A stretch of DNA of 64,000 nucleotides from Pirellula sp. (GTDB taxonomy: Bacteria > Planctomycetota > Planctomycetia > Pirellulales > Pirellulaceae): assembly GCA_021300015.1 (NCBI GenBank), contig JAJTFB010000021.1, positions 1 to 64,000 of the forward strand, given 5' to 3'. Position 1 is the stretch's first letter. Every line of letters starts with the position of its first letter. Below, piece after piece: positions 2,851 to 44,747 of the stretch. The position numbers were made by a program, and so were the translations under genes. The notes beneath the pieces are model-generated. The model was given only the letters and a program-made list of their open reading frames with translations. It was not told where the DNA came from and ran no database searches.

Positions 2851-2976
2851 ACCAATCACCAATCACCAATCACCAATCAACAATCAACAATCAACAATCA
2901 ACAATCAACAATCAACAATCAACAATCAACAATCAACAATCAACAATCAACAATCAACAATCAACAATCAACAATC
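2851..2976. repeat. 18-copy heptamer tandem repeat
   Basis: Four copies of ACCAATC are followed by fourteen uninterrupted copies of AACAATC, 126 bases in all. The array lies between the convergent LOG and pnkp genes. It extends into pnkp: the last codons and the TGA stop of that gene (2961-2976) are read from the repeat on the minus strand. Because 7 is not a multiple of 3, gain or loss of a unit would shift a frame entering the array. Heptamer arrays of this kind are typical of replication slippage. Confidence 0.95.
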
Positions 2977-5564
2977 ACGGGTTCACTCTCCAATGCCAAA
3001 ACCCCAAACACACACTCGTGCACCTTGCGCAGCGGGTCTTGTTTGACAAACCGCTCCAATCCTTCCAAACCGAGGGAAAACTCTCGTATCGCAAGCGATC
3101 GCTTACGCCCTAACCCCCGTTTTCGAAGTCTCGTCAAGTTCTCCTCGGTATCGTAATCCGGACCATAAATGATCCTTAAATACTCTTTGCCCCGACACTT
3201 TATCGCCGGCTGGACCAGTCCACTTTTGCTCCTGGCTATCCAACTCAAGGGCTTAACCACCATCCCCTCAGCCCCCAAAGATGTCTTAGCCATCCACCAT
3301 TGAGTCCCCTCGAGAATACTCTCGCTACTCGAAACATCCACCTCTAGATACTCTGTCGCCAACAGAACCTGGGAGTCTGCTTCACACAACAACCGAAGCT
3401 TATCCATGTGCCAACAATGGTCCTTGTCCGTATGCAATCGCCCCTCGGTAGCCAGCAGATGAAACGGTGCTAGTTTCCAGTCTTCCAACGACTCGACCTG
3501 CCAACAGTAACGCCGATATGCATCCACAAATCGGTCGATGGATTTTCGCCGATTCCCGAATCGTCCTTCGACATCCTCAATCAAAGCCAGTTGCTCGGGA
3601 TCCCCAATCCGCGATCGAGCTTGGGCGAGCGATCCGAGTACCGGATCTAGGTTCATCCGCCCTGCGGCTCCGACCGCAGCATATTGAGTTTTTAACAACT
3701 CCAACGCCTTGGCTGACCAAGGCATCAGTTCGCAATCCAAACAGACCCAGTCGGTCGAGAACTCTTCCCAAAAACCGCTGCGATTGCAAGCTTCTCGCAA
3801 TCTGTCGATCAGTTCTCGCTCGATTTGAATATCCGGATGAAATCGCCGACCGGTTCGTGTATAAATCACGCCCGTTCCGCCATCCTCGATCCCGAATCGA
3901 TCCAAAGCTGCCTGCGGATCCTTGCACAAGACCACGACTGCCCTGGACCCCATGTGCTTTTCCTCGCACACGACACGATGGACTCCCTGTGCGCGATAAT
4001 ACTCAAAGGCTTCTTGAGGATGTTCCAGAAGCCCCGGTTGAGACGATGTTTCGCTCGGTGACATCGTTGGAGGTAGATAAATCAACCAGCGCGGATCCAC
4101 AGCAAAGCGACTGAGCGTCTCAATAGCTGCAATTCCATTCTCCTCGCGAATCGTCACATTGGAAATCAGACCCGTGTTGATTACCCGTTTGCCCAACACA
4201 TCTTCGATATCCAGAAGATGATCACATTGCTGCTGGGCCGTCAGCGAATCGGCTTCGACAAGAAACGGTTTGCTTGGCTCGCAGTAAACTCGACGCGCGG
4301 GTACCGATACGAACTCCTGCTCGGGATACCTGAGTGCTGTCAGCGCCCCTCCAAACACACATCCAGTGTCCACGTTCACGGTGCGATTGAGCCACTCGGC
4401 TCGTGCAACAGGAGTATGCCCATAGACGACACAAGCCTCCCCGCGATACTCTCTTGCCCAATCCAATCTTATGGGCAAGCCAAATTCGTCGACCTCTCCG
4501 GTCGTATCGCCATAAAGACAAAACTCACGCACCCTGCCGCTGGTCCTGCCGTGATACTCTAGCTTCAGCCCGGCATGAGCGACGACCAACTTCCCTGCAT
4601 CAAACACCAGATGAGAGACCAAGCCATCGATGAACGACTTGAGCTCCTCCTCCAATCTCCCTCTGGATGCTTCTGGCAATCTTTCGAAATCCGCAATGGT
4701 CTCGGCCAACCCATGCTTGATCTGCACATCGCTCCCGTTGAGCTTCTTCAGCAGTTTCGTGTCGTGATTGCCCGGCAAGCAAAAGGCACTGCCATGATGC
4801 GCCATCGTCGCAACGAGTCTCAGAGTATCTACGCTACGAGGCCCTCGGTCGACGTAGTCCCCGACAAAAATCACTCTGCGCCCCTGAGGATGTTTCGGGA
4901 CCCGATCCATAAGCAGCTCGGAGTCCAGGGGCTTTTCGCAATCCTCATAGCAGTACCCGAGTTGTTCGAGCAACTCCTCTAGCTCATCACAACAACCATG
5001 CAAATCACCGATAATATCAAACGGTCCGGTCTGTGACTTGCGGTTCGTCCACAAAGGGGTTCTAACGATCTGGACCGAATCGACATCCTCTTGTGTTTTA
5101 AGAACGAACGAGTAGCGAAATCCTTCGAGTTTCAGGCGTCCGAGCCCCTTTCGGAGCAATTGCTTTTGCCGATAGATCACATTGGCCCCGAAAGATCGAT
5201 CGGGTCTTTGAAGGTTCCGTTCAATACAGATCGAGTCGGGCAGGTTGAAAACGATTCCAACGGCAAAACAGTGATGCTTTTTCGCAAGAGCGATCAGCCC
5301 TTTTCGATCCTCGGGGGCCACGTTGGTCGCATCAATGACCGTGAGCAATCCCCGACGAAGTCGAATCTCGACAAGATAATACAGAAGCTTGAATGCATCC
5401 GGACTTGCTCCCTGATCGTTCTCGTCGTTCGAGACCCAACCGCGGCATTGATCCGAAGAGATGACTTCGTGGCTCAGAAAATGTCGGCGCGCAAAAGTGC
5501 TCTTCCCAGCCCCGCTAGGCCCGATCAATAGAACCAACGCCAATTCGGGAATCTCAAGTCGCAT
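2961..5564 (-). CDS. pnkp: Polynucleotide kinase-phosphatase with ligase domain (RNA repair)
   Basis: An 867-residue three-domain bacterial Pnkp. The N-terminal 5'-OH kinase has the P-loop GPSGAGKST (K21). The central metallophosphoesterase has GDLHG (186-190), GDYVDRG (235-241), GNHD (265-268) and a later VAHAG. The C-terminal adenylyltransferase domain has EEKHMGS, with K536 as the expected AMP-accepting lysine, then EGMVVKP and a CRGKEYLRIIYGP segment. Pnkp heals 2',3'-cyclic phosphate and 5'-OH ends and, with Hen1, seals broken tRNAs. It is the last gene of the operon and overlaps the upstream nucleotidyltransferase by 11 bases. Oddity: the last five residues and the stop are encoded by the heptamer array, so the natural C-terminus seems to have been replaced. 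Confidence 0.95.
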   Translation of the reverse strand: MRLEIPELALVLLIGPSGAGKSTFARRHFLSHEVISSDQCRGWVSNDENDQGASPDAFKLLYYLVEIRLRRGLLTVIDATNVAPEDRKGLIALAKKHHCFAVGIVFNLPDSICIERNLQRPDRSFGANVIYRQKQLLRKGLGRLKLEGFRYSFVLKTQEDVDSVQIVRTPLWTNRKSQTGPFDIIGDLHGCCDELEELLEQLGYCYEDCEKPLDSELLMDRVPKHPQGRRVIFVGDYVDRGPRSVDTLRLVATMAHHGSAFCLPGNHDTKLLKKLNGSDVQIKHGLAETIADFERLPEASRGRLEEELKSFIDGLVSHLVFDAGKLVVAHAGLKLEYHGRTSGRVREFCLYGDTTGEVDEFGLPIRLDWAREYRGEACVVYGHTPVARAEWLNRTVNVDTGCVFGGALTALRYPEQEFVSVPARRVYCEPSKPFLVEADSLTAQQQCDHLLDIEDVLGKRVINTGLISNVTIREENGIAAIETLSRFAVDPRWLIYLPPTMSPSETSSQPGLLEHPQEAFEYYRAQGVHRVVCEEKHMGSRAVVVLCKDPQAALDRFGIEDGGTGVIYTRTGRRFHPDIQIERELIDRLREACNRSGFWEEFSTDWVCLDCELMPWSAKALELLKTQYAAVGAAGRMNLDPVLGSLAQARSRIGDPEQLALIEDVEGRFGNRRKSIDRFVDAYRRYCWQVESLEDWKLAPFHLLATEGRLHTDKDHCWHMDKLRLLCEADSQVLLATEYLEVDVSSSESILEGTQWWMAKTSLGAEGMVVKPLSWIARSKSGLVQPAIKCRGKEYLRIIYGPDYDTEENLTRLRKRGLGRKRSLAIREFSLGLEGLERFVKQDPLRKVHECVFGVLALESEPVIVDC

Positions 5565-6333
5565 TCTTTCGGATCCTAATCAACAGGTCATTCAAGGGTG
5601 CTTCGATTGTTGGCATCTCGGGCAATGAGGTCGATTGGAATTCGGCATGCAATCGCTGCACGAGTCTTGCGTATTCCGATTGATGGAATTCGATCGAGTC
5701 GGACTCCATCGTTTCTTTTTCTTCACCGCTGCATTTGCGATCGATTAGCTCTGAAACATACGGATGTGGGTAGATCTCGTTGAGCTCATCGAGATTCGTT
5801 CTGAGTTCTCCGGTACGCATCAAGTGAATCCCAGTCCATAGGACCCGATACACATACAGCAACGGCTTGACTCGAGGTGGCGTCTGCTTCGAGTAAAGTT
5901 TCCACTGAGTATCGGCAAAGCCTAAGTAGTGATAGGCGTGATATCGCGTGATACATCCAGGTGCAAGCTCCTTGAGCTCCTCGAACTCCGGGGTCGAATG
6001 CAACACTAAGGGAGACAGAAGCTGCTCAAGGACATACCCGTTTCGTTTGAGCAACATGCCAAAAAATTTACCCACGTCATGCGTCACCAAATCGATCTCT
6101 AACCCGTTTCGGATATTCGAATTTTCGATGGTTTCATGATGAATTCGTAAGCCTAGGATCGTGTCGAGCGGTAAACAGTGCGCACCTCGCAAATCGTAAT
6201 CGGAGTTTGCCGAAGGAAACCCGTAGATGTGGGCACCACTGATCGTTGCAAAGAGCAATGGATAGGGATGCTCGCAAACCTGAGCGGATAGCTCGGGCAA
6301 TTTTGTGATTTGCAAAACGTCGGAGGTCTTCAT
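5554..6333 (-). CDS. Pol-beta-fold nucleotidyltransferase, RNA-repair associated (second copy)
   Basis: A 259-residue protein with the nucleotidyltransferase signature GAHIYGFPSANSDYDLRG near residues 33-50; D45 and D47 are the expected metal ligands, and EIDLVTHD (about residue 80) may supply the third. The remainder is helical, as in the COG3541/RlaP-like family (predicted RNA-ligase-associated nucleotidyltransferases). It starts one base after the stop of the related gene upstream and overlaps pnkp by 11 bases, so translation is probably coupled. The substrate is unknown; by context, tRNA or RNA 3' ends are plausible. The family call is good; the function is inferred. Confidence 0.8.
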   Translation of the reverse strand: MKTSDVLQITKLPELSAQVCEHPYPLLFATISGAHIYGFPSANSDYDLRGAHCLPLDTILGLRIHHETIENSNIRNGLEIDLVTHDVGKFFGMLLKRNGYVLEQLLSPLVLHSTPEFEELKELAPGCITRYHAYHYLGFADTQWKLYSKQTPPRVKPLLYVYRVLWTGIHLMRTGELRTNLDELNEIYPHPYVSELIDRKCSGEEKETMESDSIEFHQSEYARLVQRLHAEFQSTSLPEMPTIEAPLNDLLIRIRKNAT

Positions 6334-6334
6334 G

Positions 6335-7159
6335 TCAATCGCTCAGCGCGCTCCTTCTAGCCTGGATCAGCAATTCATTGGCTTTCAAATAATCAGGTCG
6401 AATTGCGAGCAACTCATCGCGATGCTCTCCCACATCGACCGCGACTCGTTGATTTCTCAGGATGTCGATCCCGGAAATCAGTAAACGGATTAGGTGCATG
6501 GCATGCTTCCATTTGATTTGCCCCTGGTTTCGCAAATCGGTTTGCAATTTCTTGAACTGGGATGCGACGTATCCACTGTATGTCTGATAAACCAATCGGG
6601 ACAGGAAGATCGAACGATGATCGAGCAGGGCTTGAACCTCGGGTTCCTGCCGCTCGACGATCGGGGAATAGAGGCATTCGAGTGCATTTGGATTTGCCTT
6701 GAGCGCCAGGATAAGGAACTTTTGGTACTCCCAATACGCTTCCTGAGTTGCCTCGCACTCGATTTGCTCAGGGACCCCGAACAAGGACCAGTGATCCTCG
6801 GCCCTAGGGAGATAAATCCCTCGCCGATCTACATCCGAGTCTTCATTCGATAACCCGTAAGCACGCGAACCGATCACGCATTGGTAAATAACCCGGTCGT
6901 AATATCGAGCCTGCTGGAGTTGGGTCTCAGCATCCCCTTCGGTCGGCTGGCGGTATTTGGCCAACAAAGCCAAATCTGATCCCAAGAAGGCTTCTTCAGA
7001 GCCATCCATGAAGCGGACCCCGTAAGTCGCTCTGTCGGAGCTAGGTGTGCTGACAATGGTACCGACGACACCTTCGGGAAACAGATCTCTCGACCCTCCC
7101 CCGCGGACGCTTTTAAGCACGACGACTTGGCAACCGACGACATACAACGTATCAATCAC
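6335..7159 (-). CDS. Pol-beta-fold nucleotidyltransferase with N-terminal beta-barrel-like extension (first copy)
   Basis: A 274-residue protein. Residues 1-70 form a short beta-rich segment (VGCQVVVLKS, FPEGVVGTIVST, YGVRFMDGSEEAFL) that looks like a small SH3/KOW-like barrel, a fold often used to hold RNA or protein partners. The nucleotidyltransferase domain follows, with GSRAYGLSNEDSDVDRRG at about 97-114; D109 and D111 are the likely metal ligands. It is related to the next gene, which lacks the extension. It overlaps hen1 by 8 bases and ends one base before the second copy starts. The enzyme class is well supported; its task in RNA repair is inferred from the operon. Confidence 0.8.
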   Translation of the reverse strand: MIDTLYVVGCQVVVLKSVRGGGSRDLFPEGVVGTIVSTPSSDRATYGVRFMDGSEEAFLGSDLALLAKYRQPTEGDAETQLQQARYYDRVIYQCVIGSRAYGLSNEDSDVDRRGIYLPRAEDHWSLFGVPEQIECEATQEAYWEYQKFLILALKANPNALECLYSPIVERQEPEVQALLDHRSIFLSRLVYQTYSGYVASQFKKLQTDLRNQGQIKWKHAMHLIRLLISGIDILRNQRVAVDVGEHRDELLAIRPDYLKANELLIQARRSALSD

Positions 7160-8603
7160 GATGAAAGACTCCCAGTTGCGTAGGAGTGCCCCGATCAGGA
7201 TCCTCTGAACCGATCCCTTTGTACTCGACTCGGTAGCCGTAAAGCGCGGCGATGCGATTCCCCCAAGCTTGAAACTCGGCTCGGGTCCACTCGAAGCGAT
7301 GGTCCGCGTGGCGGAACTGACCTGCGGGTAAACTTTCCCAAACGCTGTTGTATTCCTTGTTGGGAGTGGTCAGCACCACATGCTTTGGGCAAGCCTGGGT
7401 GAACAGGACTTTGGCGAGCGATTCGAGTCTGTTGGGTTCCAAGTGCTCGATGACTTCGACCACAGCCGCCGCATCGAATCCCTGCAAGCGACGGTCTTTA
7501 TAGATCAGCGAACCATGGAGCAGATCGACCCGAGCTCGTTGCCGTTCATCGAAAGCATCAAACCGCAGTCGCTTGCGGGCAATCTCCAAGGATTTGTACG
7601 AGACATCCATACCTACGATCCGCTCGAATTGAGAATTCTTGACCAGATCACGCAAGAGTCGACCTTCGCCACACCCAAGGTCCAAAACGGACTTGGCGCC
7701 GCAGGCGACGAGTTCCTCGAGCACGGCCGCGTAGCGCTGCGTGTTGAGCCTTGCGGGCAGCTCAGGATCGGTAGCTCCAGGAGTCTCTTTGTTATCGTCT
7801 CTATAGGTCAGATCTTGCGCAGGGCTGATCGCCACGTCAGCAAGAGGGGGCTCATCGGGTTCATTCGACGCATCGGCTTCGATCAATCGCTCCAGCGCAC
7901 TGCGGACCAAGTTCGCTCGACCGCGTAGATAGCGTCGAGCGATCCATTCCTTATGGGGATGTGATGCAAGCCAACCTTGGCCCCTCTCCAGAAGCTTATC
8001 GAGTTCCTCTTCGCCAACGAAGTAGTGTTTGTTGTTGTCAAAGGCGGGGATTAGGACATACAGATGCGTGAGCAACTCGGAGAGTAAACAGGTCTTGGAC
8101 AGCACCGTTGGTACGTAGGGACTGACGCCCCACTGCGGGAACTGCGAATCGAGCAACTCGAAGCGCGTGGAGACCGTGTACCCGAGCGGTTCAAACACCC
8201 TTTCTACCCACTGGGAATCGCCACGGGTCGCAAGCGAATCAATCCTGGCTGTCCACGGAAAAGGCGTCGAGGCCAACTGCGGATAGTCCTTGCATTTTCC
8301 CCCAATGGCTGACGAGTAGACTTGGGCGATCGCTACACTCATAAACGACGATGCTACAAAGGGTCGATCATTGACGTACTGACCGAGCATAAAATCCGAG
8401 TCGCGGTAAGCCCCCCGAAGCATTCCAACCGGGTCGACCTCAAGTAGCATGCATGCGACCGCGCAGTCGGATTCATACCTCGGATAGTACACATGCACCT
8501 TACCAAAACTCATCGAGAACGATTGCACCTTGTCGGGGTGCTTGTGAAGCAGGTAGCTGAGCTTGGTTGCCTCAGGCCCGGTGGTCTCAAGTGTCAAAAG
8601 CAC
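7152..8603 (-). CDS. hen1: 3'-terminal RNA ribose 2'-O-methyltransferase Hen1
   Basis: Bacterial Hen1 of about 483 residues, first gene of the operon. The N-terminal half (Hen1-L) contains YLLHKHPDKVQSF and FGKVHVYYP and is known to activate the Pnkp ligase domain. The C-terminal half is a SAM methyltransferase with DLGCGEG (about 308-314), EVIEHLE (metal-binding E and H) and LTTPNKEYN, followed by HADHRFEWTR. It methylates the 2'-OH at the 3' end of the broken RNA before sealing, which protects the joint from renewed cleavage. Start choice: GTG at 8603 has GAGGTGAG six bases upstream and gives the usual Hen1 N-terminus; an in-frame GTG at 8612 would add three residues but has poor spacing. 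A disordered acidic linker (about 245-285) joins the halves. Confidence 0.95.
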   Translation of the reverse strand: MLLTLETTGPEATKLSYLLHKHPDKVQSFSMSFGKVHVYYPRYESDCAVACMLLEVDPVGMLRGAYRDSDFMLGQYVNDRPFVASSFMSVAIAQVYSSAIGGKCKDYPQLASTPFPWTARIDSLATRGDSQWVERVFEPLGYTVSTRFELLDSQFPQWGVSPYVPTVLSKTCLLSELLTHLYVLIPAFDNNKHYFVGEEELDKLLERGQGWLASHPHKEWIARRYLRGRANLVRSALERLIEADASNEPDEPPLADVAISPAQDLTYRDDNKETPGATDPELPARLNTQRYAAVLEELVACGAKSVLDLGCGEGRLLRDLVKNSQFERIVGMDVSYKSLEIARKRLRFDAFDERQRARVDLLHGSLIYKDRRLQGFDAAAVVEVIEHLEPNRLESLAKVLFTQACPKHVVLTTPNKEYNSVWESLPAGQFRHADHRFEWTRAEFQAWGNRIAALYGYRVEYKGIGSEDPDRGTPTQLGVFHRD

Positions 8604-8867
8604 AGTTCTCACCTCGTGATAGCTGAGGATCGGGGTCTAGCATTCTTCGCAAAAAGAAATGGGTGTGTTTGGTGCCTTGACGCGAAAGTCAGAAGGCTGC
8701 CTATAGGCTAGGAATAAGCTACGATTAGTTTAGCAGATATCCAGAGCCATTACCCGGAGGTTATCGCCGGAAAACACGCCTTGTCGAGTGCAGCGAGACG
8801 ATCCGGGCAGTTTTTTTGAGACAAAGCGGCGAGATTCGGCGCGGTTTCATGGCTATAGTTGTTATCC

Positions 8868-10254
8868 ATGAACATGAAAACACTTCCCGATTTTTGGTTC
8901 GAGCCGCTTCCTTGGATCGACGGCCAATGGCATCCTGGCGGCGAAACCGTCACCGTTCGCAATCCCGCCACGGGGGAGAAAATCGCCGACGTGTCGCGTG
9001 CGGATGCCGCCGTTGTCACGCTGGCCATCGAGGGCGCGGTGAAGGCTCAGCGCACCTGGCGCGAGGTATCCGCAGTCGAACGCGGCATGATTTTGAAACG
9101 CACCGCCGCGCTGCTGTTGGCGCAGAAGGATGAGTTCGCCCGGTTGCTCACCGCCGAGCAGGGCAAGCCGTATGCCCAGGCGGTCGGCGAGGTGGAGTAT
9201 GCCGCCAGCTTTTTCCAATGGTTCGGCGAAGAGGCGCGGCGCGTCTATGGCCGCATCGCTGGGCATCCCGAAGCGGGGCGCGAGTTTTTTATCGAGCACA
9301 AACCAGCCGGCGTGGCCGGTCTGATCACGCCATGGAATTTCCCCCTGGCGCAGGGTGCGAAGAAAGTCGCCGCCGCACTCGCGGCCGGATGCAGTGCGGT
9401 GTGGAAGCCTGCGGAACTCACCCCGCTGATCGCCCTGGCCATCGGGCCTTTAATGCGTCAAGCGGGTCTGCCCGATGGTGTGCTGCAAATCGTGCCCGGA
9501 CGTGGATCCGTGGTCGGCGCGGTCCTCGCGGAGCATCCGGCGGTGCGCGTGCTGAGTCTCACCGGTTCGACCGCCACCGGTAGCGCGCTCATGGTCGCCG
9601 CCGCGCCGGGCATCAAGCGGCTCTCGCTCGAACTCGGAGGCAACGCTCCTTTCATCGTGCTGCCGGATGCCGATCTGGACTTCGTCGCCGAGCAGCTTAT
9701 GCGTTTGAAGCTGTTCGTCTCTGGACAGGTCTGCGTCACCGCCAATCGCGTTTTTGTACACGCCGATGCCGAGTCCGCGCTGGCGGAGAAACTCGCACCG
9801 ACTCGTCGAGCAAGCGGTAGCCGAGGGAGCAAAAATCGTCGCTGAAAATCGCAGCTACGAAAGGGATGCGACTCTGCGCGAAGGTAGCTTTTTCCCGCCC
9901 ACATTGCTCACCGGCGTGCGGGATGAGATGCGCGTGGCGCAAGAGGAAATCTTCGGCCCCGTCATCCCGTTGCTGCGATATACCAGCGTCTCCGACGTCG
10001 TGCGGCGCGCCAATGACACGCCCTATGGCCTTGCCTCGTATGTGTATGGTCGCGACCTTGCGCAATGCCGCGCCGTGGCCTCCGCCATCGAAGCTGGAAT
10101 CGTCGGCGTGAACGAATGGCGACCGCTGAAAGCCGAGATCCCTTTCGGCGGCATCAAGCACAGTGGCATCGGCGCCGAAGGGGGCGAAGAAGGCATTCGC
10201 GAATTCCTCGAAACCCAGGTCATCTCCATGCCTAAACCAACCCTTGCAACATGA
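8868..10254 (+). pseudogene. Succinate-semialdehyde dehydrogenase-like gene, frameshifted with an internal deletion
   Basis: An NAD(P)-aldehyde dehydrogenase split over two frames. The first part (ATG at 8868) has PWNFPLAQ, the LSLELGGNAP motif with the catalytic Glu, and GQVCVTANR with the catalytic Cys. It runs out of frame after AEKLA near 9800 and stops at 9845. The second frame resumes at about LVEQAVAEGAKIV and carries EEIFGPV, NDTPYGL and the C-terminal PFGGIKHSGIG to the TGA at 10254. Compared with the family, some 30 residues between these points are missing, so this is a deletion plus a frameshift and not a single-base error. The gene is clearly richer in G and C than its neighbours, which suggests transfer. 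It is a single gene facing away from the RNA-repair operon. Confidence 0.8.
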
Positions 10255-10367: not shown

Positions 10368-11774
10368 TTAGAAGTCGATCTTCGCCCGAAGGCCGAAGAG
10401 AAGCGACGAGTCTGCCCGTTCGCGGAACGGATCAAGAACCTGAAGGTCCGGCGTGATCTGACACCAACGGGTCGCTTGCACGTTGTAGTAAAGTTCGACG
10501 CCGTTTTCGTTCTGCAACGGAAACAGGTTCGGAGCGAGGCTTTTCAGCGGATCGCTTACACCGACGTAAAAATAACCGATACCGAAAGTGTCCGCTTTTC
10601 GTACCGTGAATGGGCTGCTTCCACTGATGCCAGCACTGCCAAACCAATTGATTGGGCTTGGGTTGCTATCCGCGATTCCTAGGGTACTGAATACGCCCCA
10701 TTTCCGCTGCGGGTTATCCGGTGAAACGTAGAATGCCTGATCAGAATTGTATGCCATACTCCACGAGCCGGTTTTGGGAGTAGTCGCGATCACCAACCCG
10801 TCGATTGGGTCGAGATAAGCCGAGGGAGTAAGGTCCGTGTATGTTCCGCTGCTGTAGGTCCCCGAAACGCCTTGGTGCCCCGGCAGACCAAAGAATCTAG
10901 TCTGCAGATTCAACTGAGCGAAGACCGTTGCCCCGTTGTCAAAGAACGTATCAAATCCACTCACAGTAGGAGTGTTGTTCGTGTCGAACACGGCCGCTGC
11001 GAACAACGGCTCCATGTTCTCAAGGTAGGCAAAGCCGGCCCCGAATGTCGAATAAGGCACTGTGCGGGCATAAATGGGATTGAGCATCAACGCGCTGTTT
11101 TGGAAACCGTTGAGCGTGCCCGCACCCGTGATTGGTTGTTTGAAATCGTCCAGCGTGTTGATCTTCCCTGCGTAAACCAGCGATTGCTCGGACAAAAACT
11201 GGGTCAATTTCACTCCGGTCAAAGCGGTGACCGTTCCGTTCGGCTGAGGCACCGCCAACATGAGGTTGACCGGCATCAGGGCACCTGTGAGCGAATTGGC
11301 CGAATCACCGTATCGGGTTTCCCCGTGCAAAGTCATGAATGACCCCTTCGAGAGTCCGACCTTTTCGCCGTCGACGTTCAAAAAGTAATCATTGCGTCCA
11401 CCGTAGCGAAAGGCTTGCTCAAGTCCACCGCTGGTTACCCCCTGATGGTACTGGGTATTGCTGACGTCGATTCCGATCCCGTTTCCCGCAAGCGCAGATC
11501 GGGTGCCGAACCAATCGCCGGTTAGCTTCGGTCGTTCGTACCATGGCCCACCGAACAGCGAAGTCGGGGTTTGCGATAGGGAATCAGCTTCGGCGATCTC
11601 AGAACCGATCTCAGAACCAAGCATGGGCTCGGTTTCGGTCACAAGCGGCGGCTGTGTCATGGATATCGAGGGATCGGTCGGCTCTTGGGCCTGCGCCGAT
11701 GCAGCGACCATGTAGACGGCGACTGCTTGCAAAATGCAGGCAGCGGAATTTGCAAATCGAGGAAAAGACAGCAT
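10368..11774 (-). CDS. Carbohydrate-selective porin, OprB family
   Basis: A 468-residue outer-membrane protein. A signal peptide (about 1-29, ending AQAQ) and a short polar linker precede the OprB pattern: KLTGDWFGTR, a 'GIGIDVSNTQYHQG' strand, YGGRNDYFLNVDGEK, GSFMTLHGETRYG and YAGKINTLDDF. The chain ends in an aromatic residue (AKIDF), as expected for a beta-barrel inserted by the Bam machinery. OprB proteins admit sugars and related small solutes across the outer membrane. It is a single-gene unit, facing away from the secreted protein at 12.4 kb. Its substrate cannot be told from the sequence. Confidence 0.85.
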   Translation of the reverse strand: MLSFPRFANSAACILQAVAVYMVAASAQAQEPTDPSISMTQPPLVTETEPMLGSEIGSEIAEADSLSQTPTSLFGGPWYERPKLTGDWFGTRSALAGNGIGIDVSNTQYHQGVTSGGLEQAFRYGGRNDYFLNVDGEKVGLSKGSFMTLHGETRYGDSANSLTGALMPVNLMLAVPQPNGTVTALTGVKLTQFLSEQSLVYAGKINTLDDFKQPITGAGTLNGFQNSALMLNPIYARTVPYSTFGAGFAYLENMEPLFAAAVFDTNNTPTVSGFDTFFDNGATVFAQLNLQTRFFGLPGHQGVSGTYSSGTYTDLTPSAYLDPIDGLVIATTPKTGSWSMAYNSDQAFYVSPDNPQRKWGVFSTLGIADSNPSPINWFGSAGISGSSPFTVRKADTFGIGYFYVGVSDPLKSLAPNLFPLQNENGVELYYNVQATRWCQITPDLQVLDPFRERADSSLLFGLRAKIDF

Positions 11775-12378
11775 CGGAGAGGGTTCCTGAGTAGTTCATG
11801 CAGACCCACCGGAAACGATTTGAGCGGGATATCGGGTTGTATCGAATGCCGGTTTGGATCGAAACTACCGTCTGTTACGGATATGCTTCGAAGATCGATA
11901 AATGCCTACCGGTTGTGAGGATTGGGCGATGTCGAAGACGGAAGCATGCGAGTGTTTCCAAGACCGTTATGCGTTCTTGTCAACTTTTGGGGAACGAAGG
12001 GGGCTGTGTACTGTCGTTTGGCCCTTGAGACCGATTCGCTTGACTACTGGCTGTTTTGCGAACTAAACGATCCTGTTAGAATCCCCTGGGTCACCTCGGT
12101 GTAGGGATCGTAACCATCGAGTTCCTTTTGAACGTGCAGGAATTTCCTACTCGCATCACACGGACATGGCAATGGCTCCGGAGGATCCTCTTTTTTGATG
12201 GGATGTGGCGTCAATCAGATTCGAGGAATTGATGGATCAATTCCAGTGCGAATCCACCCTTACGCAACCCTGGTTGCCTCATCTAACCTTACATTATCCA
12301 GTTGCTCGGGTTTTTTTAAAAGTCACTTTCGACTCGGTATCACGGCCATGGCGGTACTCGCACTCCAAGAATAATTTT
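11775..12378. other. Long non-coding interval between divergent genes
   Basis: About 600 bases between the porin start and the chosen start of the next gene. It must contain promoters for both, but I could not identify a convincing -35/-10 pair. An in-frame GTG at 12205 would lengthen the downstream protein by 58 residues; those residues are polar and precede the signal peptide, so I treat them as leader. No RNA gene was seen. Confidence 0.5.
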
Positions 12379-15108
12379 ATGTTTAGCGCATCTTCTTTTT
12401 CACACAAACTTCCCGGTTACCAGGGCATGGTGCTCCTTGTTTCCATCGTTCTGGTATGTGACACTCCCATCCAAGGACAGGAAAATGAAAAAACCGACAC
12501 GTTATCACCCAAGGTGAGCTTGCGATGGAAGTTCCTTCCGGATCAGCTCTTTTTAGGCAAGATCGCATCTGGGATTCGAACCCTAGACAACTATCCGCAA
12601 CATACAACCGATGTACAGGACTTCCAATGGAGTGTTCAGTCGGTCGATGAGAATGGAAACGCAACGGTCAAGGTTGCATTGCATCGATCCCGATTTCGTC
12701 ATCGGAGCGATCAGGTCAAGATCGACTACGATAGCATCCACGATGCGGAGTTTTCACCTTCAGAAAAAGAGCTCTCGGAGATCGATTGGATTTTGAAATC
12801 CTTTCGCCGCTTTCACGAAAATGAATATCTGTTTCGTTTCTCGGATCGCGGTGAAATGCGAAAGCTGGAAAACTACCCCAGCATACCAGCCCAACTGATC
12901 GATTGGCCTGAGTTGCCCGAGCAACCTGTCGGAGTCGGTGATACCTGGATCGGAGATAGATCTCAAGACAAACCCATTGTGTTTGAATTGGTACGTTTGG
13001 AAGAGTTCGATGGAGAGAACATTGCTTGGATTGAGAATAAATCCAACACCATGCGTTATCGCTTCCTGGTCCATGCGGGCAGGTACTTGGACAATGTCGG
13101 CTGGGACATATTGAGCACACCGCCGGAAGCGGAAAAGCAGATTGTGCAACATAGGTCCCAACGCCTTCGGCTTGAACTCTCCGAGGAAAAAGGAAGATTC
13201 GACCGCTTGATCGCCTTGCAGCCCAACCAGCCAGGTCGGGCGCTGAATTTGGTTTCAAGTTCATACAAGGAGACGGATTCAATCAATGAGTCTCTAATCG
13301 GCGAGAAGGGGATGCTACGGGGAATCCAAGAGAGACTTTGGATTGAGCATGTCGACCAACTCGCTATAACGGACAAAGATCGATGGAATACATTCGATCG
13401 ACTTTTGTTTGCTCGGTATTTCCAACGCCAAGGCGACATCGAAAGCTATCGGCAACTGATCAAGGAAGGCGCACAGGCTTTAGCGATCGATCTGGAGCGG
13501 AACTCACTTGCGAGAAACTTTCATTTACTTGAATTCGCAGTTTTGCTCGCAAGTCTCGGGGAATTTGATGCGGCTAGGCAAGCTTGTTTTGCAATTCCCC
13601 CTGATGCATCCTCAGGACTTTCCATCACGATCCATGGGCCCGTCGAGGTCCCGAAATCCGCATTGCGGGATTACGCACTCTTCTTAGTCGCCAAAGAGCT
13701 GGCCAAGTCTGGGGTGGTTGGGCAATCAACGGCTACAGCCCAAATGATCACAAGCAAACCCGATAGGTCCGCAGCCTTTTGGGTCATCTCCATGCATCTA
13801 GCGGAGCAGGGGAGAGCTCAAGACGCAGTGGATCATGCAGCAAAAGCGCAGGAGTCTTATGTCGCAGGTGCTAACGCTTTGGAATTTGACACCAATGGTC
13901 CCCTTGAGGTCCCAATCCACGAGTACCGGACCCTTGCGCTAGGTAAACTGGCGATCTGCCAGGCTAAACTGCAGGATGAAAAAGCCATGCGCAAAACGCT
14001 GTCCATGCTCATGGACAGGAAGGAGAAAATCGCTGTACTGGTCGACTTGATCACAACTCTCGATAAGGACGGATTGAGCCAACAAGCGGACAAGCTCTCT
14101 GCCGAATTGTCCAAGCCTACCCAATCGCTCGCAACATCCGTACGTATCTCGATGCGACTTAAGTCAAATGCCTTAGCCGAAGCAGAGAGGATGATTGAAT
14201 CCATCAGCGATCCTCAATGGAATGCGGCTAGTCGCATACAATATGCCTTAGCGATTCGGTTCGATGCCAATCGTGCGAACGATCTGCAGAAACAACTCGA
14301 TTTAGCAGGAGCCGCTATCCGGGAGATATCGGACCCAGGAGTCAAAGCCAGAGTGAGCACCCAGTATGCAGGTGCTTTGTTCAAAACAGGTAGAAATGAC
14401 CAAGCCCAGAAGGAGTTGAATGTAGCTTTGGAACTTGTGGAACGCTCAGAGATGGAGGATTCAACGCGATCAGAGACGATCTTGGGATTGGCAGAGATTC
14501 TTCCAAGGGTTCCAGGCACCATGGAATTTGAAAAGCTGTTGGCAAGGTTCGAAAACATCTTGAATAGGCAGCAATTGCACGGCCATGGGGCAGTTCAGCA
14601 CATCGTTGTGAATATTTATCTAGAAAGGGGAGAGATGGAAAAAGCGGAGACGCTTGCTAAAGGGATTGAGGAAGCCTCGTCTCGGTGCCAAGCATTGTCT
14701 GCAATAGGAAGTCGCTACGGCAAACTACTTGAATTGGAGCGAAGCCGGGAGGTGTTTTCAGATGCCTACGAATCGGCAATGCAAGTGATCGATGTCCTTG
14801 GTTTGGATACCGTCGGATCGAAAGGGGGAGCGGTCCGGTTCGTCGGACAGCAACAAGGGGAGTGCGACTTAGAAGGCTTAGTCCATTACTTGCAGGCATC
14901 TCGAAACGCCAATATCCGAGCCTACGGATTCCTTGGCGGTGCAGAGGCGATCGACCCACAAGCTGCCAACACTGCGATGAGAACGGCACGGATCCCCGAA
15001 GGGATTTTGAAGGAAATCTGCGAATCGAATGTCGCATGCAAGATTCTTCAAAAAAGGGCTCAACTGCTCGAAACGCTTTCTGAGACTGCTAAAAAAGATC
15101 GTCCGTAA
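12379..15108 (+). CDS. Large secreted protein with helical (TPR-like) repeats, function unknown
   Basis: A 909-residue protein from the ATG at 12379, which gives a signal peptide (MVLLVSIVLVCDTPIQGQ). Residues about 30-330 are beta-rich (LRWKFLPDQLFLGKI, WPELPEQPVGVGDTW) and resemble planctomycete secreted domains of the DUF6263 kind, though I am not sure of that assignment. From about residue 350 the sequence is a series of paired amphipathic helices rich in Ala, Leu and Glu, such as EFAVLLASLGEFDAARQACF and QYAGALFKTGRNDQAQKEL, consistent with TPR-like repeats for protein binding. The gene stands alone, with no operon partner. An upstream GTG at 12205 is possible but would bury the signal peptide. 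Confidence 0.7.
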   Translation: MFSASSFSHKLPGYQGMVLLVSIVLVCDTPIQGQENEKTDTLSPKVSLRWKFLPDQLFLGKIASGIRTLDNYPQHTTDVQDFQWSVQSVDENGNATVKVALHRSRFRHRSDQVKIDYDSIHDAEFSPSEKELSEIDWILKSFRRFHENEYLFRFSDRGEMRKLENYPSIPAQLIDWPELPEQPVGVGDTWIGDRSQDKPIVFELVRLEEFDGENIAWIENKSNTMRYRFLVHAGRYLDNVGWDILSTPPEAEKQIVQHRSQRLRLELSEEKGRFDRLIALQPNQPGRALNLVSSSYKETDSINESLIGEKGMLRGIQERLWIEHVDQLAITDKDRWNTFDRLLFARYFQRQGDIESYRQLIKEGAQALAIDLERNSLARNFHLLEFAVLLASLGEFDAARQACFAIPPDASSGLSITIHGPVEVPKSALRDYALFLVAKELAKSGVVGQSTATAQMITSKPDRSAAFWVISMHLAEQGRAQDAVDHAAKAQESYVAGANALEFDTNGPLEVPIHEYRTLALGKLAICQAKLQDEKAMRKTLSMLMDRKEKIAVLVDLITTLDKDGLSQQADKLSAELSKPTQSLATSVRISMRLKSNALAEAERMIESISDPQWNAASRIQYALAIRFDANRANDLQKQLDLAGAAIREISDPGVKARVSTQYAGALFKTGRNDQAQKELNVALELVERSEMEDSTRSETILGLAEILPRVPGTMEFEKLLARFENILNRQQLHGHGAVQHIVVNIYLERGEMEKAETLAKGIEEASSRCQALSAIGSRYGKLLELERSREVFSDAYESAMQVIDVLGLDTVGSKGGAVRFVGQQQGECDLEGLVHYLQASRNANIRAYGFLGGAEAIDPQAANTAMRTARIPEGILKEICESNVACKILQKRAQLLETLSETAKKDRP

Positions 15109-37318: not shown

Positions 37319-38611
37319 GTGCGAGACAGGACCATACTTTTACCGGGACAAACAGGAACTTGGTTGAACGTCGATTTCGATCAGGTTCGCTCCTTGCTGG
37401 AGAAGCATGGGATTCGATGCGAGACGATGGAAGTGGACTTCAAGGACCTAGTCCCTTTACCGCCCTCAAAATCCAAGTACTCGATCGACTCCGAGCGTCA
37501 TTGCCCGGACTATCTTCGGTACTACATGAGCTTGGTGACCACCGAGCACTGGCAAGACATTCCTGCTGCCGAAAGGCTTGAATGGATTTATCGCTACGGG
37601 GATAGTTTTCAAGAGCAAATCGATCGTCTCGCTTTGCAGATCCAGGATCGGATCGACGGAGTTGTGATTGTCCAAGGATATGAACCGTCGAATGCCTTCA
37701 TCCGAGCCGCGGCGATTCGGCAGGGGATCGGCACTCTGGCACTCGAGAACACCATGCTTTCGGACCGGCTCATCTGGGATAGCGTCTCGGGGATCACCCC
37801 CAATCGCAACTTAGCGAAAAACTACTTTTGGAGATACTCCGAATTCGTCGAACCGAGCAAGGTGGAGGCCTACATAGGCAGCTTGATCACGAACACAGCG
37901 GTACTCAAGTCCTTGCAGCATACGACTCCCGTAGAACATCCATCTGGCGAAAAATCAACGATTGAGAACTCCGATAAAGATGTTTTGAAATCGATGAGCG
38001 GAAGGCCTTATTGCCTTTTTCTAGGTCAAGTTTACACCGACAGCTCGCTGGTGTTTGGGCTTGGGAATTGGAGGAATCCACTGGAACCACTTTTAAAGAC
38101 CTACCGATGGTCACAGCGCAACGGATTGGATTTGGTCGTCAAATTGCATCCGAAAGAGGATCAGGGTCTGGCCCCAGGAACTCTTGAACCCTACGACCGG
38201 ATGACTTGGAGAAAAATACAGGGTTCGGACCTGTTTCAAGAGTTTCTGCAGGACAGCCGAGTGAGCATCGACTACCGCAACGAGTGCAATACTTATGCAT
38301 TGATCGAACGAGCGCATTGCGTTGCAACGATCAATTCGCAGTCGGGGCTCGAGGCGGCGATCCGGGGAAAGCCAGTACTGGTCCTGGGCGATGCGTTCTA
38401 TTCGGGGTTGGGCTTTACCAACGATTGGAATTTCCCGGTACTCCTGGAGTCGCTCGGGCCCGACGACATGGTCAGCGACGTGGCGATGGCTCGTCGCTTC
38501 GGCTATATCTTTCTCGAGCTTTACTGTCGGAGAAAAACGCCGGAGGAAGTCGCTTCGTTGGTTCAAAGTACGATGGGTTCGATCACTCCTCCCAGGTCTG
38601 TATACCGGTGA
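37319..38611 (+). CDS. Capsule polysaccharide biosynthesis-like protein
   Basis: About 430 residues. GTG at 37319 is preferred over the in-frame TTG at 37313 because TAGGAG ends exactly six bases before it. The chain is soluble and of Rossmann-like alternation: VVIVQGYEPSNAFIRAAAI, GIGTLALENT, PYCLFLGQVYTDSSL, LDLVVKLHPKED and HCVATINSQSGLEAAIRGKPVLVLGDAFYSG. The last two segments are the signature of Capsule_synth/Kdo-transferase-like glycosyltransferases, with a 'KxHPxE' and an 'N-S-x-x-GLEA' loop. A role in making or modifying a surface glycan is likely. Its 3' end overlaps the convergent giant membrane gene by 29 bases. Confidence 0.75.
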   Translation: MRDRTILLPGQTGTWLNVDFDQVRSLLEKHGIRCETMEVDFKDLVPLPPSKSKYSIDSERHCPDYLRYYMSLVTTEHWQDIPAAERLEWIYRYGDSFQEQIDRLALQIQDRIDGVVIVQGYEPSNAFIRAAAIRQGIGTLALENTMLSDRLIWDSVSGITPNRNLAKNYFWRYSEFVEPSKVEAYIGSLITNTAVLKSLQHTTPVEHPSGEKSTIENSDKDVLKSMSGRPYCLFLGQVYTDSSLVFGLGNWRNPLEPLLKTYRWSQRNGLDLVVKLHPKEDQGLAPGTLEPYDRMTWRKIQGSDLFQEFLQDSRVSIDYRNECNTYALIERAHCVATINSQSGLEAAIRGKPVLVLGDAFYSGLGFTNDWNFPVLLESLGPDDMVSDVAMARRFGYIFLELYCRRKTPEEVASLVQSTMGSITPPRSVYR

Positions 38612-41600
38612 TCATTTTCTTGAGTTCCTCTCGGCGTTTTTCGAACAAGCCAAACACGAAGAGCATCGTCGCGCCGAGGATAATCCCGCAGACATACCAT
38701 AGCCAGGTTTGTTCGAGATCTACAGCGGCATACCATAGGATGCTAAACATCGAAACGGCCAGGAACATCGAGCCTAGCCACAGCATCGAGCGGATGCGAG
38801 AGGCGATACCGAAGAGAATTCCTAAAATGGAAAACACAGCCAGGACGATCGGCAACCAGGGAGCTTTGGCGATCCCTTGGAGAAAGATCTCGCTGGTGGA
38901 TGCAACGTAGATCGATCCGATCGAAGCGTAACGGATCGAGGCGAGCTGTGACGAGGTCAATCGATCTTTGAAGTATTGGCATGCTGCAAACACACAAAGA
39001 GCTGGCGGAATCACCCACAATTGGGGATGCTGAGCGAACGACAGATCCCTTTTGTGCAGCAACTGCCAGGACGCGAGATTGGCACAAACGATTGCCGCAG
39101 TGATGTAGATCGGTGAGGATCGCATGAAACCAAACATGCCATATCCAACCGCAGAAACTAGCATGGTCACGCCATGATCCACCTGCGAGGGGGCGATCCA
39201 GGGAGCGAGGATTGGCAAGAGTGGAAGCAGACTGCCGCTGTTGCGAAGCGGGTTTGCCAGTACAGCCCACCCGCGACGTTCGGCCCATTCTCCGACTCCC
39301 ACTCCAGCGAATCCAAGCAGTACGGCGAGCATGGGCCAAATGCTTTGAAACCATCCACCGAATAGGTAGGGCATCGTAACTCGCAGATGAATGACCAGCA
39401 TGAGCAAGATCGCTTGGGCACCGTACACATAGACCTCGCGGTATTTTTCGGACAAACCGAACGGATCTTTGCCCGGGAGAACCGCCGCGCCAAGGCACAA
39501 TACGATCGAGATCGAAAAACTCACAAGGACACAAATCGTCGAATAGCTATCGAAAGGTTGCGAGCGCCCCGAATAGGACGATTCGATTTCAAAAAACACC
39601 GTAAAAGCACCGACGACGATCGATAGAGCGACGACCCATGGGCTTACGATCAAGCTCGCTTGTTCCCACTCCGATTTGCCACCGAGCCATTTGATCAAAC
39701 CAAGTCCATACAAGCACGCCGTCAGGACCAGCGGGAGCGAAGCAACAGCGATCCGCGATACCCAAGCGGTTCCGGTGGGTTGAGCATGCCAGAACAATGC
39801 GATCGCATAGACGAGCCCCAGAGCTAAGGCGAACACGCGCATCGGAGCGGCCGATGCTCGGGGGGTTGCGTACCTTGCGATCAATCCGATCGCAAATGCC
39901 ACCGCCATGATCGCATTGGCCGATAGGAATCGGAAATTCTGTGCCCCTTGGACGAATTGAGACAGCAATCCCAAAGAAGCGACGCCGAGGGCCAGTAACG
40001 CATTCATCGGAACGATCCACATCGAACGTGGTTTGTCCGGGGTCTTGAATCCCGCGAGCAAGCCGCTGAGTTCTTCTTGGATCCGTTCGCCGGATCGCCA
40101 GAGGAAGCTTGTGGCCAAGCAGTAGGCAGCTAAAACGATGGTCGCAAGCCACAAGAGAACCGAACCCGATGCACCCGTCCACTGCAGTAACCACACGGTG
40201 CTGCATAAACCCGCTAGGTAGATCACCGCATGTTCGTCCCTGGATCGTGGATTCCAAAAACCGGTGATGCCTCCGAAAAGACAAGCGGTAATCGCCAACG
40301 CAAACGAACCAGAATGCGGGACCATCCATTGGTTATTTCCGGGGGTGTTCAGCGATCGCAATAACCAGAAGGCGCTGATTGCAAACAGGCACCCGGTTGC
40401 CAGGATCAACGGAATACGCGACCTGCGTCCAAGTCCGCTTAGCGTCCCGACCGCAGACGAAATGGCTGCGATTGCGATCTGTAAATACATCGCATCGAGC
40501 ATCTGGGCGCCAAATAGCCGAGGCAGGCTGAAAGCCATAAAACCTCCCAATTGTGCCAGGAGCAGGCTCCAGATCCAAGTCCAACGATCCGAATGGAACC
40601 AGGTCGTTGCGACGGACAATGCCCAAGCACCGCAAAGTATCGCCACAGGAACGATCCGCTCACCCAAACCCACCGGGTTCCATGGTCTGGAGTCAAAATA
40701 GAGTCGGAAGCTCATCCATACGGCGATCGCAAGTAGACTTCCTAGAACGAATCTGAGGCTGCCAGGCTTTTTGCTTAGTGCATCGGTACGGGTCGAATTC
40801 GCGATGACGGCAACTCCAGCGACGAGTAGGACAACGGCACTGGCGCCAAGCGATTCGGAGAGCGAGGAGAATAAAGGAGCGACCACACCCATACCCGCTG
40901 CCCCGGCCGCTGCGATCCAAGGTCCGATATCAACACTACGGTCTCGCTGAAATGCTTGTACAAAGTGCAGGAGTATAGCAACGAGAATTCCCAAAGCCCC
41001 CCAAACGAATCCTGATGTAAAGACGCTCAGCGTCAGAACCCCCAGAACGATTATTCCAAGTCCCGCGAGTGCGAACCCAGCGCTGATTTGACTCAATGCA
41101 TTTTGCCAGCTTTTGCGTACCTCAGCGATCGGTTGACCTTGCCAATCGAGTGCGGATGCGGAACGAAGATCGTTTGCAGTGAGGGCTTGCCAAGCAAGGA
41201 CGTAGATCGATGCCGTAAGCGACAGGATCGCACAGAGTCCGATCCATGACGGGATAAAGATGCCTTGGGCTTTCAGCAGCATCATGTAACCGGCTAGAGC
41301 GCTCAGCAGGAGAAATAATGCAGCGATGAATCCAAGGTAGGGGCTAGGTCGAGAAGCGGCCACGCCAATCAATCCGATGGAAACCAAGAGAATGGGAACG
41401 GCATACGAACCGGCTAAGCCCAGACTAGCAAAGAAGGTATCTGGGTTTGGACCCGTCAGAGGATGGACCATCACCGTCACGGCGATCTGCAGCAGGGCCC
41501 ATGCCACCAGCGGCGAGATCAGCAGGGTCGAAGCGACGATCGGCATTTTGGAGTTTCCTGTATTTGAGTCTCCTGATTCCTTGAGCAGATACCACGGAAG

Positions 41601-44600: not shown

Positions 44601-44747
44601 TTTGTCATCGGGGTAGATCATCGCCTTGCATTTTTCGCAAGGTTTTTTCGAGGACTGGGAAAAGGGGTAGGCGATAACCACCCAGATCAAGTGTCCGACG
44701 AACGCCCAAAGGACAAACCCAATCAACGAAATGATGATCCAACCCAT
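38583..44747 (-). CDS. Giant polytopic membrane protein with N-terminal zinc ribbon, function unknown
   Basis: A 2054-residue protein. One N-terminal helix (WIIISLIGFVLWAFVGHLIWVV) is followed by a zinc ribbon with C37-x2-C40 and C51-x2-C54, a helical segment, and a Pro/Lys-rich linker (about 95-165). From about residue 210 to the end there is a nearly unbroken succession of hydrophobic helices, many tens in number, separated by short polar loops and a few longer periplasmic ones. No catalytic motif was found. It may be built from duplicated membrane modules, but I could not show this by eye. The uniform reading frame over 6.1 kb and the strong codon pattern leave no doubt that it is a gene. 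Confidence 0.85.
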   Translation of the reverse strand: MGWIIISLIGFVLWAFVGHLIWVVIAYPFSQSSKKPCEKCKAMIYPDDKACRHCGWTSIPPNLEQANRICKQALLAAMKRELIDPATMQRGIEVLALLAKPPVKPAARPTAKPSEISPEKPLEMQPEKVSQRPLDKPAAPDQPRPPIVPPTRTAGPMPPQSPESLVHALDRTCDDPKPQSKLDTKQPSKKWTELLSTFMEESNIRWGEILGGLLIVCCSTALVISFWDQIATRIWLKFSVFTGINVTTFALGLYAWHRWKLPTTSRGILVIAMMQMPLNFLAFALFTLGMGWHWPTVAGEVLSMAMLGYFAFLAARILTPNSIALTTCTPVVFGFANLLVRRTVDQGASTPVLYAWGLGLIAVYAFLVALGKRPLITGAMGRYGSSLVFFALNTFGVVLALGLLLKCSGQPMEAFRLLSPLLTLLATPALFVALEVGKRLEKPSGLLIPMILVGTSAIALSGVAILFSWPAPLLMIGTGCGLLALLAVSAVSLRRAELVYPISVVLSVLLVLTWYGVQGQIDWMNRSVPKLLETLATPTTGFVWVAYSLVCLLISAVFNRLGKPILSLGLLRSAMLSGTFGTILLTAFGFGREAYSESLAAIYLVYATVAFGWSRARRVPWLETLAIAFLASAAFQWIVVGWTDFDFATRIYACSLSVSIALIVVLMVQHALGNAASDMQPLSIASLLSILVFTLIAVTRSRSDGFNPLMSASLLWFVLAWFRSDGTFWKIAQIVGLASAFAGVIHASVASTWWPNEPSNWLLGYAHPMFLQYAALTLFIFGLGAVLLDGLLRRNTGAFALAIAGPIKRLHDSSVARIAIGTGAALTLGIMAYGAMPGVSQEVLPRDFISKTESVSFVQAGVTGERMVPELQALEVPGLPHAAASWGRDSSKYRVWGLPPIFAIWTLGLLATWTLGSRFTKTDDSSGNTRWDLFFAIAISLWYPCATLAESGVAVASALRWITTIVFLLGCLALCFWIRRIDRQNEPSATASIDRFDSLFSSLSIHTAAPWLIIGAIVLGAVLLQTELTPWSGVVWGSTLVLALPVLVILPWYLLKESGDSNTGNSKMPIVASTLLISPLVAWALLQIAVTVMVHPLTGPNPDTFFASLGLAGSYAVPILLVSIGLIGVAASRPSPYLGFIAALFLLLSALAGYMMLLKAQGIFIPSWIGLCAILSLTASIYVLAWQALTANDLRSASALDWQGQPIAEVRKSWQNALSQISAGFALAGLGIIVLGVLTLSVFTSGFVWGALGILVAILLHFVQAFQRDRSVDIGPWIAAAGAAGMGVVAPLFSSLSESLGASAVVLLVAGVAVIANSTRTDALSKKPGSLRFVLGSLLAIAVWMSFRLYFDSRPWNPVGLGERIVPVAILCGAWALSVATTWFHSDRWTWIWSLLLAQLGGFMAFSLPRLFGAQMLDAMYLQIAIAAISSAVGTLSGLGRRSRIPLILATGCLFAISAFWLLRSLNTPGNNQWMVPHSGSFALAITACLFGGITGFWNPRSRDEHAVIYLAGLCSTVWLLQWTGASGSVLLWLATIVLAAYCLATSFLWRSGERIQEELSGLLAGFKTPDKPRSMWIVPMNALLALGVASLGLLSQFVQGAQNFRFLSANAIMAVAFAIGLIARYATPRASAAPMRVFALALGLVYAIALFWHAQPTGTAWVSRIAVASLPLVLTACLYGLGLIKWLGGKSEWEQASLIVSPWVVALSIVVGAFTVFFEIESSYSGRSQPFDSYSTICVLVSFSISIVLCLGAAVLPGKDPFGLSEKYREVYVYGAQAILLMLVIHLRVTMPYLFGGWFQSIWPMLAVLLGFAGVGVGEWAERRGWAVLANPLRNSGSLLPLLPILAPWIAPSQVDHGVTMLVSAVGYGMFGFMRSSPIYITAAIVCANLASWQLLHKRDLSFAQHPQLWVIPPALCVFAACQYFKDRLTSSQLASIRYASIGSIYVASTSEIFLQGIAKAPWLPIVLAVFSILGILFGIASRIRSMLWLGSMFLAVSMFSILWYAAVDLEQTWLWYVCGIILGATMLFVFGLFEKRREELKKMITGIQTWEE

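Follow-up and report, generated by a model that had tools for sequence, protein, structure and literature searches.

The window, a 64,000-nucleotide stretch of a Pirellula sp. contig, carries a Pnkp/Hen1 RNA-repair operon in which two genes for RlaP-type nucleotidyltransferases (NTases; hereafter, NT1 and NT2) lie between hen1 and pnkp. We tentatively read it, with somewhat less than even confidence, as a repair operon with an accessory two-subunit terminal nucleotidyltransferase, in which NT1 and NT2 are predicted to refill RNA ends before sealing and NT2 would be the catalytic partner. Both proteins are members of the Pfam family RlaP ("RNA repair pathway DNA polymerase beta family"); the literature had therefore already predicted the core of this idea. 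The RlaP family and its placement beside RNA ligases are already known, and the name is said to come from a 2016 RNA-repair survey by Burroughs and Aravind. An ordered, sometimes fused pair drawn from two clades, with an altered NT1 site and co-occurrence with Hen1 and Thg1, provisionally appears to be an undescribed variant, though the 2016 survey might cover part of the pairing.

A four-gene RNA-repair operon

All four genes are encoded on the minus strand in the order hen1, NT1, NT2, pnkp; hen1 and NT1 overlap by 8 bp, NT1 and NT2 are 1 bp apart, and NT2 and pnkp overlap by 11 bp. The hen1 gene (positions 7152-8612) encodes a protein of 486 aa that scores 627.2 bits against TIGR04074 (cut-off 340) and 316.5 bits against PF12623, the Hen1_L region. 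The pnkp gene (positions 2961-5564) encodes a protein of 867 aa combining a polynucleotide 5'-kinase, a metallophosphatase and an RNA ligase (PF13671, PF00149, PF16542), with 1334.2 bits against TIGR04075 (cut-off 750). Both proteins are thus above the equivalog cut-offs of their profiles, and their motifs are kept: ExxEH at residue 386 and DLGCG at residue 311 in Hen1; the P-loop, the phosphatase motifs GDxHG/GDYxDRGP/GNHD and the ligase motif around EEKHMGSR in Pnkp.

Between them, NT1 (positions 6335-7159; 274 aa) has an N-terminal SH3-like domain and is C-terminally damaged in the assembly, and NT2 (positions 5554-6333; 259 aa) is of full length. They match PF10127 with 131.6 and 162.4 bits, respectively (cut-off 23 for both), the NT2 match extending over profile positions 8-248 of 249. 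Coordinates and profile scores together bear out the preliminary description, which had proposed a Hen1-NTase-NTase-Pnkp operon with genes overlapping or 1 bp apart, and had seen in it an RNA-repair operon with NTases of a family predicted beside RNA ligases. NT1 and NT2 are the only RlaP genes in the genome assembly of the window, which is 81% complete. Those near relatives that bear names are Pirellula and Planctomycetota metagenome assemblies.

The window had zero tRNA, tmRNA or Rfam matches, and its promoter and terminator counts were not above those of shuffled sequence. PADLOC reported for the window just a weak mad2 match, to the methyltransferase domain of Hen1.

NT1 and NT2 as an ordered pair

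A profile search of 392 planctomycete genomes detected RlaP in 81, and 37 of them have an NT1-NT2 doublet as counted from the match table. Of the 41 loci compared, which were examined in full, 40 have NT1 ahead of NT2 with both on one strand, and the gap between the two domains is usually ~100 bp. In four planctomycete genomes from four families (L046, L055, L057, L064), NT1 and NT2 are encoded in a single ORF. The maximum-likelihood tree placed NT1 and NT2 on separate sides with supports of 100/96 and 99/98, one label (L057) being an artefact of the fused ORF. The NT1 clade and the NT2 clade each span Planctomycetota, Deinococcota and Actinomycetota, indicating that the duplication predates the transfers and that both copies were kept. 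The "two different copies" of the preliminary description are accordingly the members of two ancient clades.

From these two copies, the preliminary description had suggested two steps, which stands as one option; the fusions and the fixed order equally suggest one two-subunit enzyme. In its full form, the former option holds that NT1 and NT2 are sequential enzymes for separate steps (e.g., 3'-side rebuilding, and end marking or capping) and form no heteromer. The deep divergence of the clades and the differences between their catalytic-site residues agree with it, whereas the near-fixed NT1>NT2 order, the ~100-bp spacing and the single-ORF fusions favour a physical unit, within which two activities would still be possible. 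We regard two separate enzymes as unlikely.

A different RlaP pair is found in Pontibacter (L141) with RtcB, TROVE, hen1 and pnkp; we rejected it as an instance of the same doublet, as its partners are a single-type RlaP and a diverged NT1-like protein. Distant single RlaPs do occur in phages, NT1 matching 273 records of which none spans 80% of its length, and no relatives were found in viral contigs searched with single-protein queries.

Active sites and the N-terminal domain of NT1

The GS/GA-x-G...DxD metal-binding motif of RlaP is present and near-invariant in both NT1 and NT2. The aspartates named in the preliminary description were found at the positions it gave and are conserved: in NT1, D109-x-D111 (positions 6827-6835, minus strand) has D109 in 39 and D111 in all 40 of the 40 homologues, and in NT2, D45-x-D47 (positions 6193-6201, minus strand) has each aspartate in 42 of 43 homologues, with one gap. 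A third catalytic carboxylate is normally used by pol-beta-type transferases. In NT2 it is D81, in an h-D-h strand (positions 6091-6093, minus strand), where the homologues have D in 41 cases and E in 2 (n = 43). In NT1 the corresponding position is Gln139, and its homologues have Q (28), E (7), D (4) or S (1) there (n = 40). The earlier statement that the metal ligands are intact in both enzymes, which considered two of the three usual carboxylates, is thus not borne out. The next residue, E140, is Glu in 35 of 40 homologues and could serve as a substitute third carboxylate, given a shift of the strand by one residue.

AlphaFold models of medium quality were obtained for NT1 from L081 (pLDDT 70.9) and for NT2 from the window (pLDDT 72.8). 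The active-site region of the NT1 model has pLDDT <50, so the placement of E140 is beyond the model.

The N-terminal SH3/Tudor-like barrel of NT1 (approximately residues 8-72; positions 6944-7138, minus strand) has conserved G/V/P/D-G positions between residues 9 and 53, shared by at least 34 of the 37-38 NT1 proteins with residues there. Residues 11-81 of the NT1 model match SH3/Tudor-like folds, weakly (Z 5-6). This domain of ~70 aa, which the preliminary description had not noted, is missing from NT2 and also from the NT1 of Thermomonospora (L121).

Association with Hen1, Pnkp and Thg1

On plasmid pDFI2 of Deinococcus ficus, the genes hen1, NT1, NT2, an ORF of 237 aa with no Pfam match, and pnkp follow one another with 4-bp overlaps. 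A Thg1 gene lies close to hen1-NT1-NT2 in D. taeanensis, and the gene order in Thermomonospora is hen1, pnkp, NT1, NT2. Planctomycetes of three or more families, and an actinomycete, have pairs next to hen1/pnkp. Because the operon order recurs on pDFI2 and such pairs adjoin hen1/pnkp in several families, we reject the possibility, raised in the preliminary description, that such NTases flank pnkp/hen1 only in this genome.

Across the planctomycete genomes, Hen1 was present in 18 of the 37 doublet genomes versus 21 of the 355 others (odds ratio 15, p = 8e-11) and, by genus, in 13 of 30 doublet genera versus 19 of 237 (p = 3e-6), and the tRNA 5'-end polymerase Thg1 was present in 12 of 37 versus 12 of 355 genomes (odds ratio 14, p = 1e-7; genus level, p = 1e-4), in tests that assume independent genomes or genera, an independence that is not full. 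High-scoring single RlaPs (23 genomes of the Planctomycetota sample) showed no association with Hen1 or Thg1.

The doublet lies within ~10 kb of hen1 in 12 of the 18 Hen1-bearing doublet genomes, such that 12 of all 37 doublet genomes have the two adjacent; two genomes (G391, G361) have Hen1 but carry the doublet demonstrably elsewhere. Few of the 71 Hen1 loci, which come from many phyla, have the pair nearby, and most Hen1-Pnkp systems consist of two genes side by side. As most Hen1-Pnkp loci are without the doublet and most doublets are away from Hen1-Pnkp, the pair is best described as an accessory module.

Among the 25 doublet genomes in which adjacency to hen1/pnkp was not shown, the pair lies beside RtcB in one and beside an RNA ligase in one, and beside neither in the other 23. 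RtcB gave no clear signal as a partner, being encoded in 23 of these 25 genomes versus 217 of 294 genomes generally, and the RNA_ligase family PF09414 occurs in 6 of the 25, its adjacent case being G442. At single loci, L048 has the pair together with a ligase of the Rnl type and an HD-plus-kinase protein, L063 has it with RtcA, RtcB and a Band-7 protein, and in L024 a kinase and Thg1 accompany the pair beside hen1/pnkp. Clustering detected no conserved third gene beside the stand-alone doublets, and most of the clusters that recurred consisted of antisense ORFs from genomes of high GC content or of genes that are general neighbours within one genus. Anticodon nucleases of the RloC/PrrC type (PF13166) were found in 7 of 392 genomes, one of them with a doublet, showing no enrichment in what is a weak test with two candidates scored per genome.

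Apparent damage to NT1 and loss of the pair in relatives

Alignment with L031, L032 and L033 revealed an in-frame 96-bp deletion in the NT1 gene of the window (junction at positions 6398-6399, minus strand). Compared with these three relatives, the window protein is without 32 residues, equivalent to residues 263-294 of L081, which make up a conserved C-terminal helix. The missing segment holds helix 269-289 of the L081 model (pLDDT >90) and includes the conserved G265, E266, W269, R276, A286, L292 and P293. Between the window and L079, dN/dS is 0.08 for NT1 and 0.12 for both hen1 and pnkp; the strong purifying selection on the remainder of NT1 suggests that the helix was lost recently or that its absence is an assembly error. 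A nearby aldehyde dehydrogenase gene on the same contig is also without ~92 bp, which keeps the option of an assembly error open for the NT1 deletion. The NT1-NT2 pair may be impaired in the window's genome.

Several relatives have lost parts of the pair. L033 is without NT2 owing to a 675-bp in-frame deletion between copies of a short repeat, L034 is missing 412 bp of hen1 and ~1.1 kb of NT1/NT2, L030 is missing ~1.5 kb across NT1-NT2, and in L076 the N-terminus of NT1 is fused to NT2. Two members of the window's own genus (L028, L029) have hen1-pnkp only. An NT2 scrap lies between hen1 and pnkp in a Chloroflexota locus (L129), and an RlaP scrap lies downstream of hen1 in G348. These varied deletions and remnants indicate that several Hen1-Pnkp pairs persist without the NTases. 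A necessity of the NTases, as might be read into the preliminary description, is not supported, given the absence of the pair from most Hen1-Pnkp loci, its loss from several, and the location of most doublets elsewhere.

The same losses raise the question of whether the two genes are dispensable passengers or decaying genes that are being lost in the genus, with little or no function in the window. The absence of the conserved helix from the window NT1, the deletions in L033, L034 and L030, the remnants in L129 and G348 and the bare hen1-pnkp of L028 and L029 would all fit such decay. We consider it quite unlikely, however, given that the low dN/dS of NT1 indicates constraint until recently, that intact pairs persist in three phyla, and that some of the gaps are possibly assembly errors, as the aldehyde dehydrogenase gene suggests.

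Structural similarity and alternative activities

Searching the PDB by sequence gave no matches. Among PDB chains, HalB was the best Foldseek match for both NTase models (E 0.025-0.034) and also gave the highest Z (8.2 for NT1, 8.4 for NT2), though these scores are weak; the next-best folds were other nucleotidyltransferases, among them the adenylyltransferases that act on aminoglycosides or spectinomycin. In the NT2 model, the C-terminal half is helical and resembles HEPN-type bundles (Z 5-7.4). Such matches of predicted models point, weakly, to a fold and not to a function.

With HalB as the top match of both models, NT1 and NT2 might, like HalB in Hailong, make a free oligonucleotide that serves as a signal or guard, and adjoin the repair genes through a shared response to attack; the frequent occurrence of doublets on their own in the genome would fit as well. 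We give this a slim chance. The Z of ~8 and the Foldseek E >0.02 are weak and come from models with pLDDT of 71-73, HalB scores only slightly above the aminoglycoside and spectinomycin adenylyltransferases, no conserved effector (channel, nuclease) adjoins the pair, and the co-occurrence with Hen1 and Thg1 would be left unexplained.

In our judgement, nucleotidylation (AMPylation) of a protein or toxin by the NTases, comparable to the action of MntA on the HEPN toxin HepT, is very improbable. RlaP does share the pol-beta superfamily with the MNT enzymes, and the HEPN-type helical half of the NT2 model could be taken as a further link, but no HEPN toxin or conserved small partner was recognised beside the pair, and it is RNA-end enzymes with which the pair has a conserved association. 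The window operon has no HEPN gene, its junctions being overlaps or a gap of 1 bp and its other three proteins having no Pfam HEPN domain.

Proposed role in RNA repair

The substrate of Pnkp is a cleaved RNA, in the typical case a tRNA severed within its anticodon loop; Pnkp adds a phosphate to its 5' end and removes the phosphate from its 3' end. Hen1 places a 2'-O-methyl group on the 3'-terminal ribose and also activates the ligase of Pnkp. In the established sequence of events, Pnkp heals, Hen1 methylates and activates, and Pnkp seals (PMC4411300), and RlaP has been predicted to restore nucleotides lost from broken RNA ends before ligation (PMC7824862). If the pair refills ends, the Pnkp phosphatase would heal the 3' end to a 3'-OH, and NT1 and NT2, acting as one heteromeric enzyme on this healed end, would re-add the nucleotide(s) lost to the nuclease; Hen1 would then methylate and Pnkp would seal, such that the full length is restored. 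NT2, with its complete D-D-D triad, would be the likely catalytic subunit, and NT1, with the SH3-like domain and the altered third carboxylate, would be a likely substrate-positioning or specialised subunit. We infer the putative heteromer, its substrate and the order of steps from gene identities, pairing, conservation and co-occurrence.

Several points weigh against refilling: most Hen1-Pnkp loci are without the pair, the NT1 carboxylate is altered, the window NT1 carries a deletion, RtcB or an RNA ligase rarely adjoins the doublets not shown to be beside hen1/pnkp (one of 25 each), the weak test for PF13166 nucleases gave no enrichment, and HalB, the closest fold among solved structures, produces signal oligonucleotides.

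A more far-reaching proposal takes NT1-NT2 for an obligate terminal RNA nucleotidyltransferase of two subunits, one paralogue of which lost the normal pol-beta triad and gained an SH3-like domain. It would rebuild trimmed tRNA ends, with Thg1 serving the 5' side, and would be a portable module added to or dropped from different sealing systems. We hold this to be rather doubtful.

Pnkp/Hen1 can seal clean cuts, but a tRNA whose cut end has also been trimmed by the nuclease is too short to function. Refilling of the gap by the RlaP pair, if it occurs, would account for the reversal of excision-type tRNA damage in bacteria and, if true, would assign an activity to the widespread RlaP family. The single-ORF fusions and the Deinococcus operon are directly testable constructs.

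Comparison with known systems

HalB of the Hailong antiphage system (PDB 9dbh, 9dbi, 9dbj) is the best solved fold for both NTase models, but it has 10-14% identity to them with weak scores, and the pair differs from it in having RNA-repair neighbours, among which no HalA-like partner was recognised when they were inspected by eye. The CCA-adding enzyme and Thg1 resemble the pair in the proposed rebuilding of tRNA ends, and Thg1 co-occurs with the doublet; they belong to different profile families, and NT1 and NT2 match neither.

The heal-methylate-seal logic is common to the window operon and the Pnkp1-Rnl-Hen1 complex (PMC4411300). In that complex, the ligase is a protein of its own and the phosphatase comes from a different superfamily, whereas the window has the fused Pnkp type. 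Both genes of the Pnkp/Hen1 operon (TIGR04074/TIGR04075) are present in the window, co-oriented and with intact motifs, and the difference from typical loci is the insertion of two NTase genes between them. Both of these are members of RlaP (PF10127, COG3541-like) by curated score. Compared with RlaP in general, they are two deeply diverged paralogues that form an ordered pair, sometimes fused, in which NT1 has an SH3-like N-terminus and an altered third carboxylate; and the doublet, unlike the single RlaPs of Planctomycetota, tracks Hen1 and Thg1.

Loss of the nucleotidyltransferase genes and other local differences among close relatives

Differing deletions have removed one or both of the RlaP-family nucleotidyltransferase genes NT1 and NT2 in closely related genomes (loci L033/L079, L034/L082, L030/L080 and L076). 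Several of these deletions are in frame, some lie between short direct repeats, and the local loss rate at NT1 and NT2 is unusually high in these genomes. Directly downstream of pnkp, and overlapping its 3' end, is a heptanucleotide tandem repeat, (TCAACAA)18, at 2849-2977 of the window, and homology to the close relatives ends at its start (2974).

The aldehyde dehydrogenase gene (8859-10254) is broken into two frames at 9796-9801, where the relatives L078 and L082 have ~92 extra bases. As with the gap in NT1, this could be either a real deletion or an assembly error. In the same two relatives ~20 kb of the window (about 10254-31061) is missing from this position, their sequence joining 10.2 kb straight to 31.06 kb in window coordinates; this segment carries FtsX/HlyD-like export genes, a dockerin protein gene and a PSD/cytochrome gene. 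A 2054-aa ORF on the minus strand (38583-44747) had no Pfam match.

RNA-repair genes in Pontibacter and Deinococcus

Four Pontibacter loci (L141, L142, L146 and L108) have RNA-repair islands close to hen1-pnkp. In L141 and L108, the two whose gene content was read, the island holds a TROVE/Ro60-like gene together with two RlaPs; L141 also has RtcB. The genes lying in between are a 1224-aa gene in L141 and AAA/reverse-transcriptase-like genes in L108. The Deinococcus ficus operon (L149) encodes a 237-aa protein between NT2 and pnkp (11676-12389), which had no Pfam match and is possibly a fifth component.
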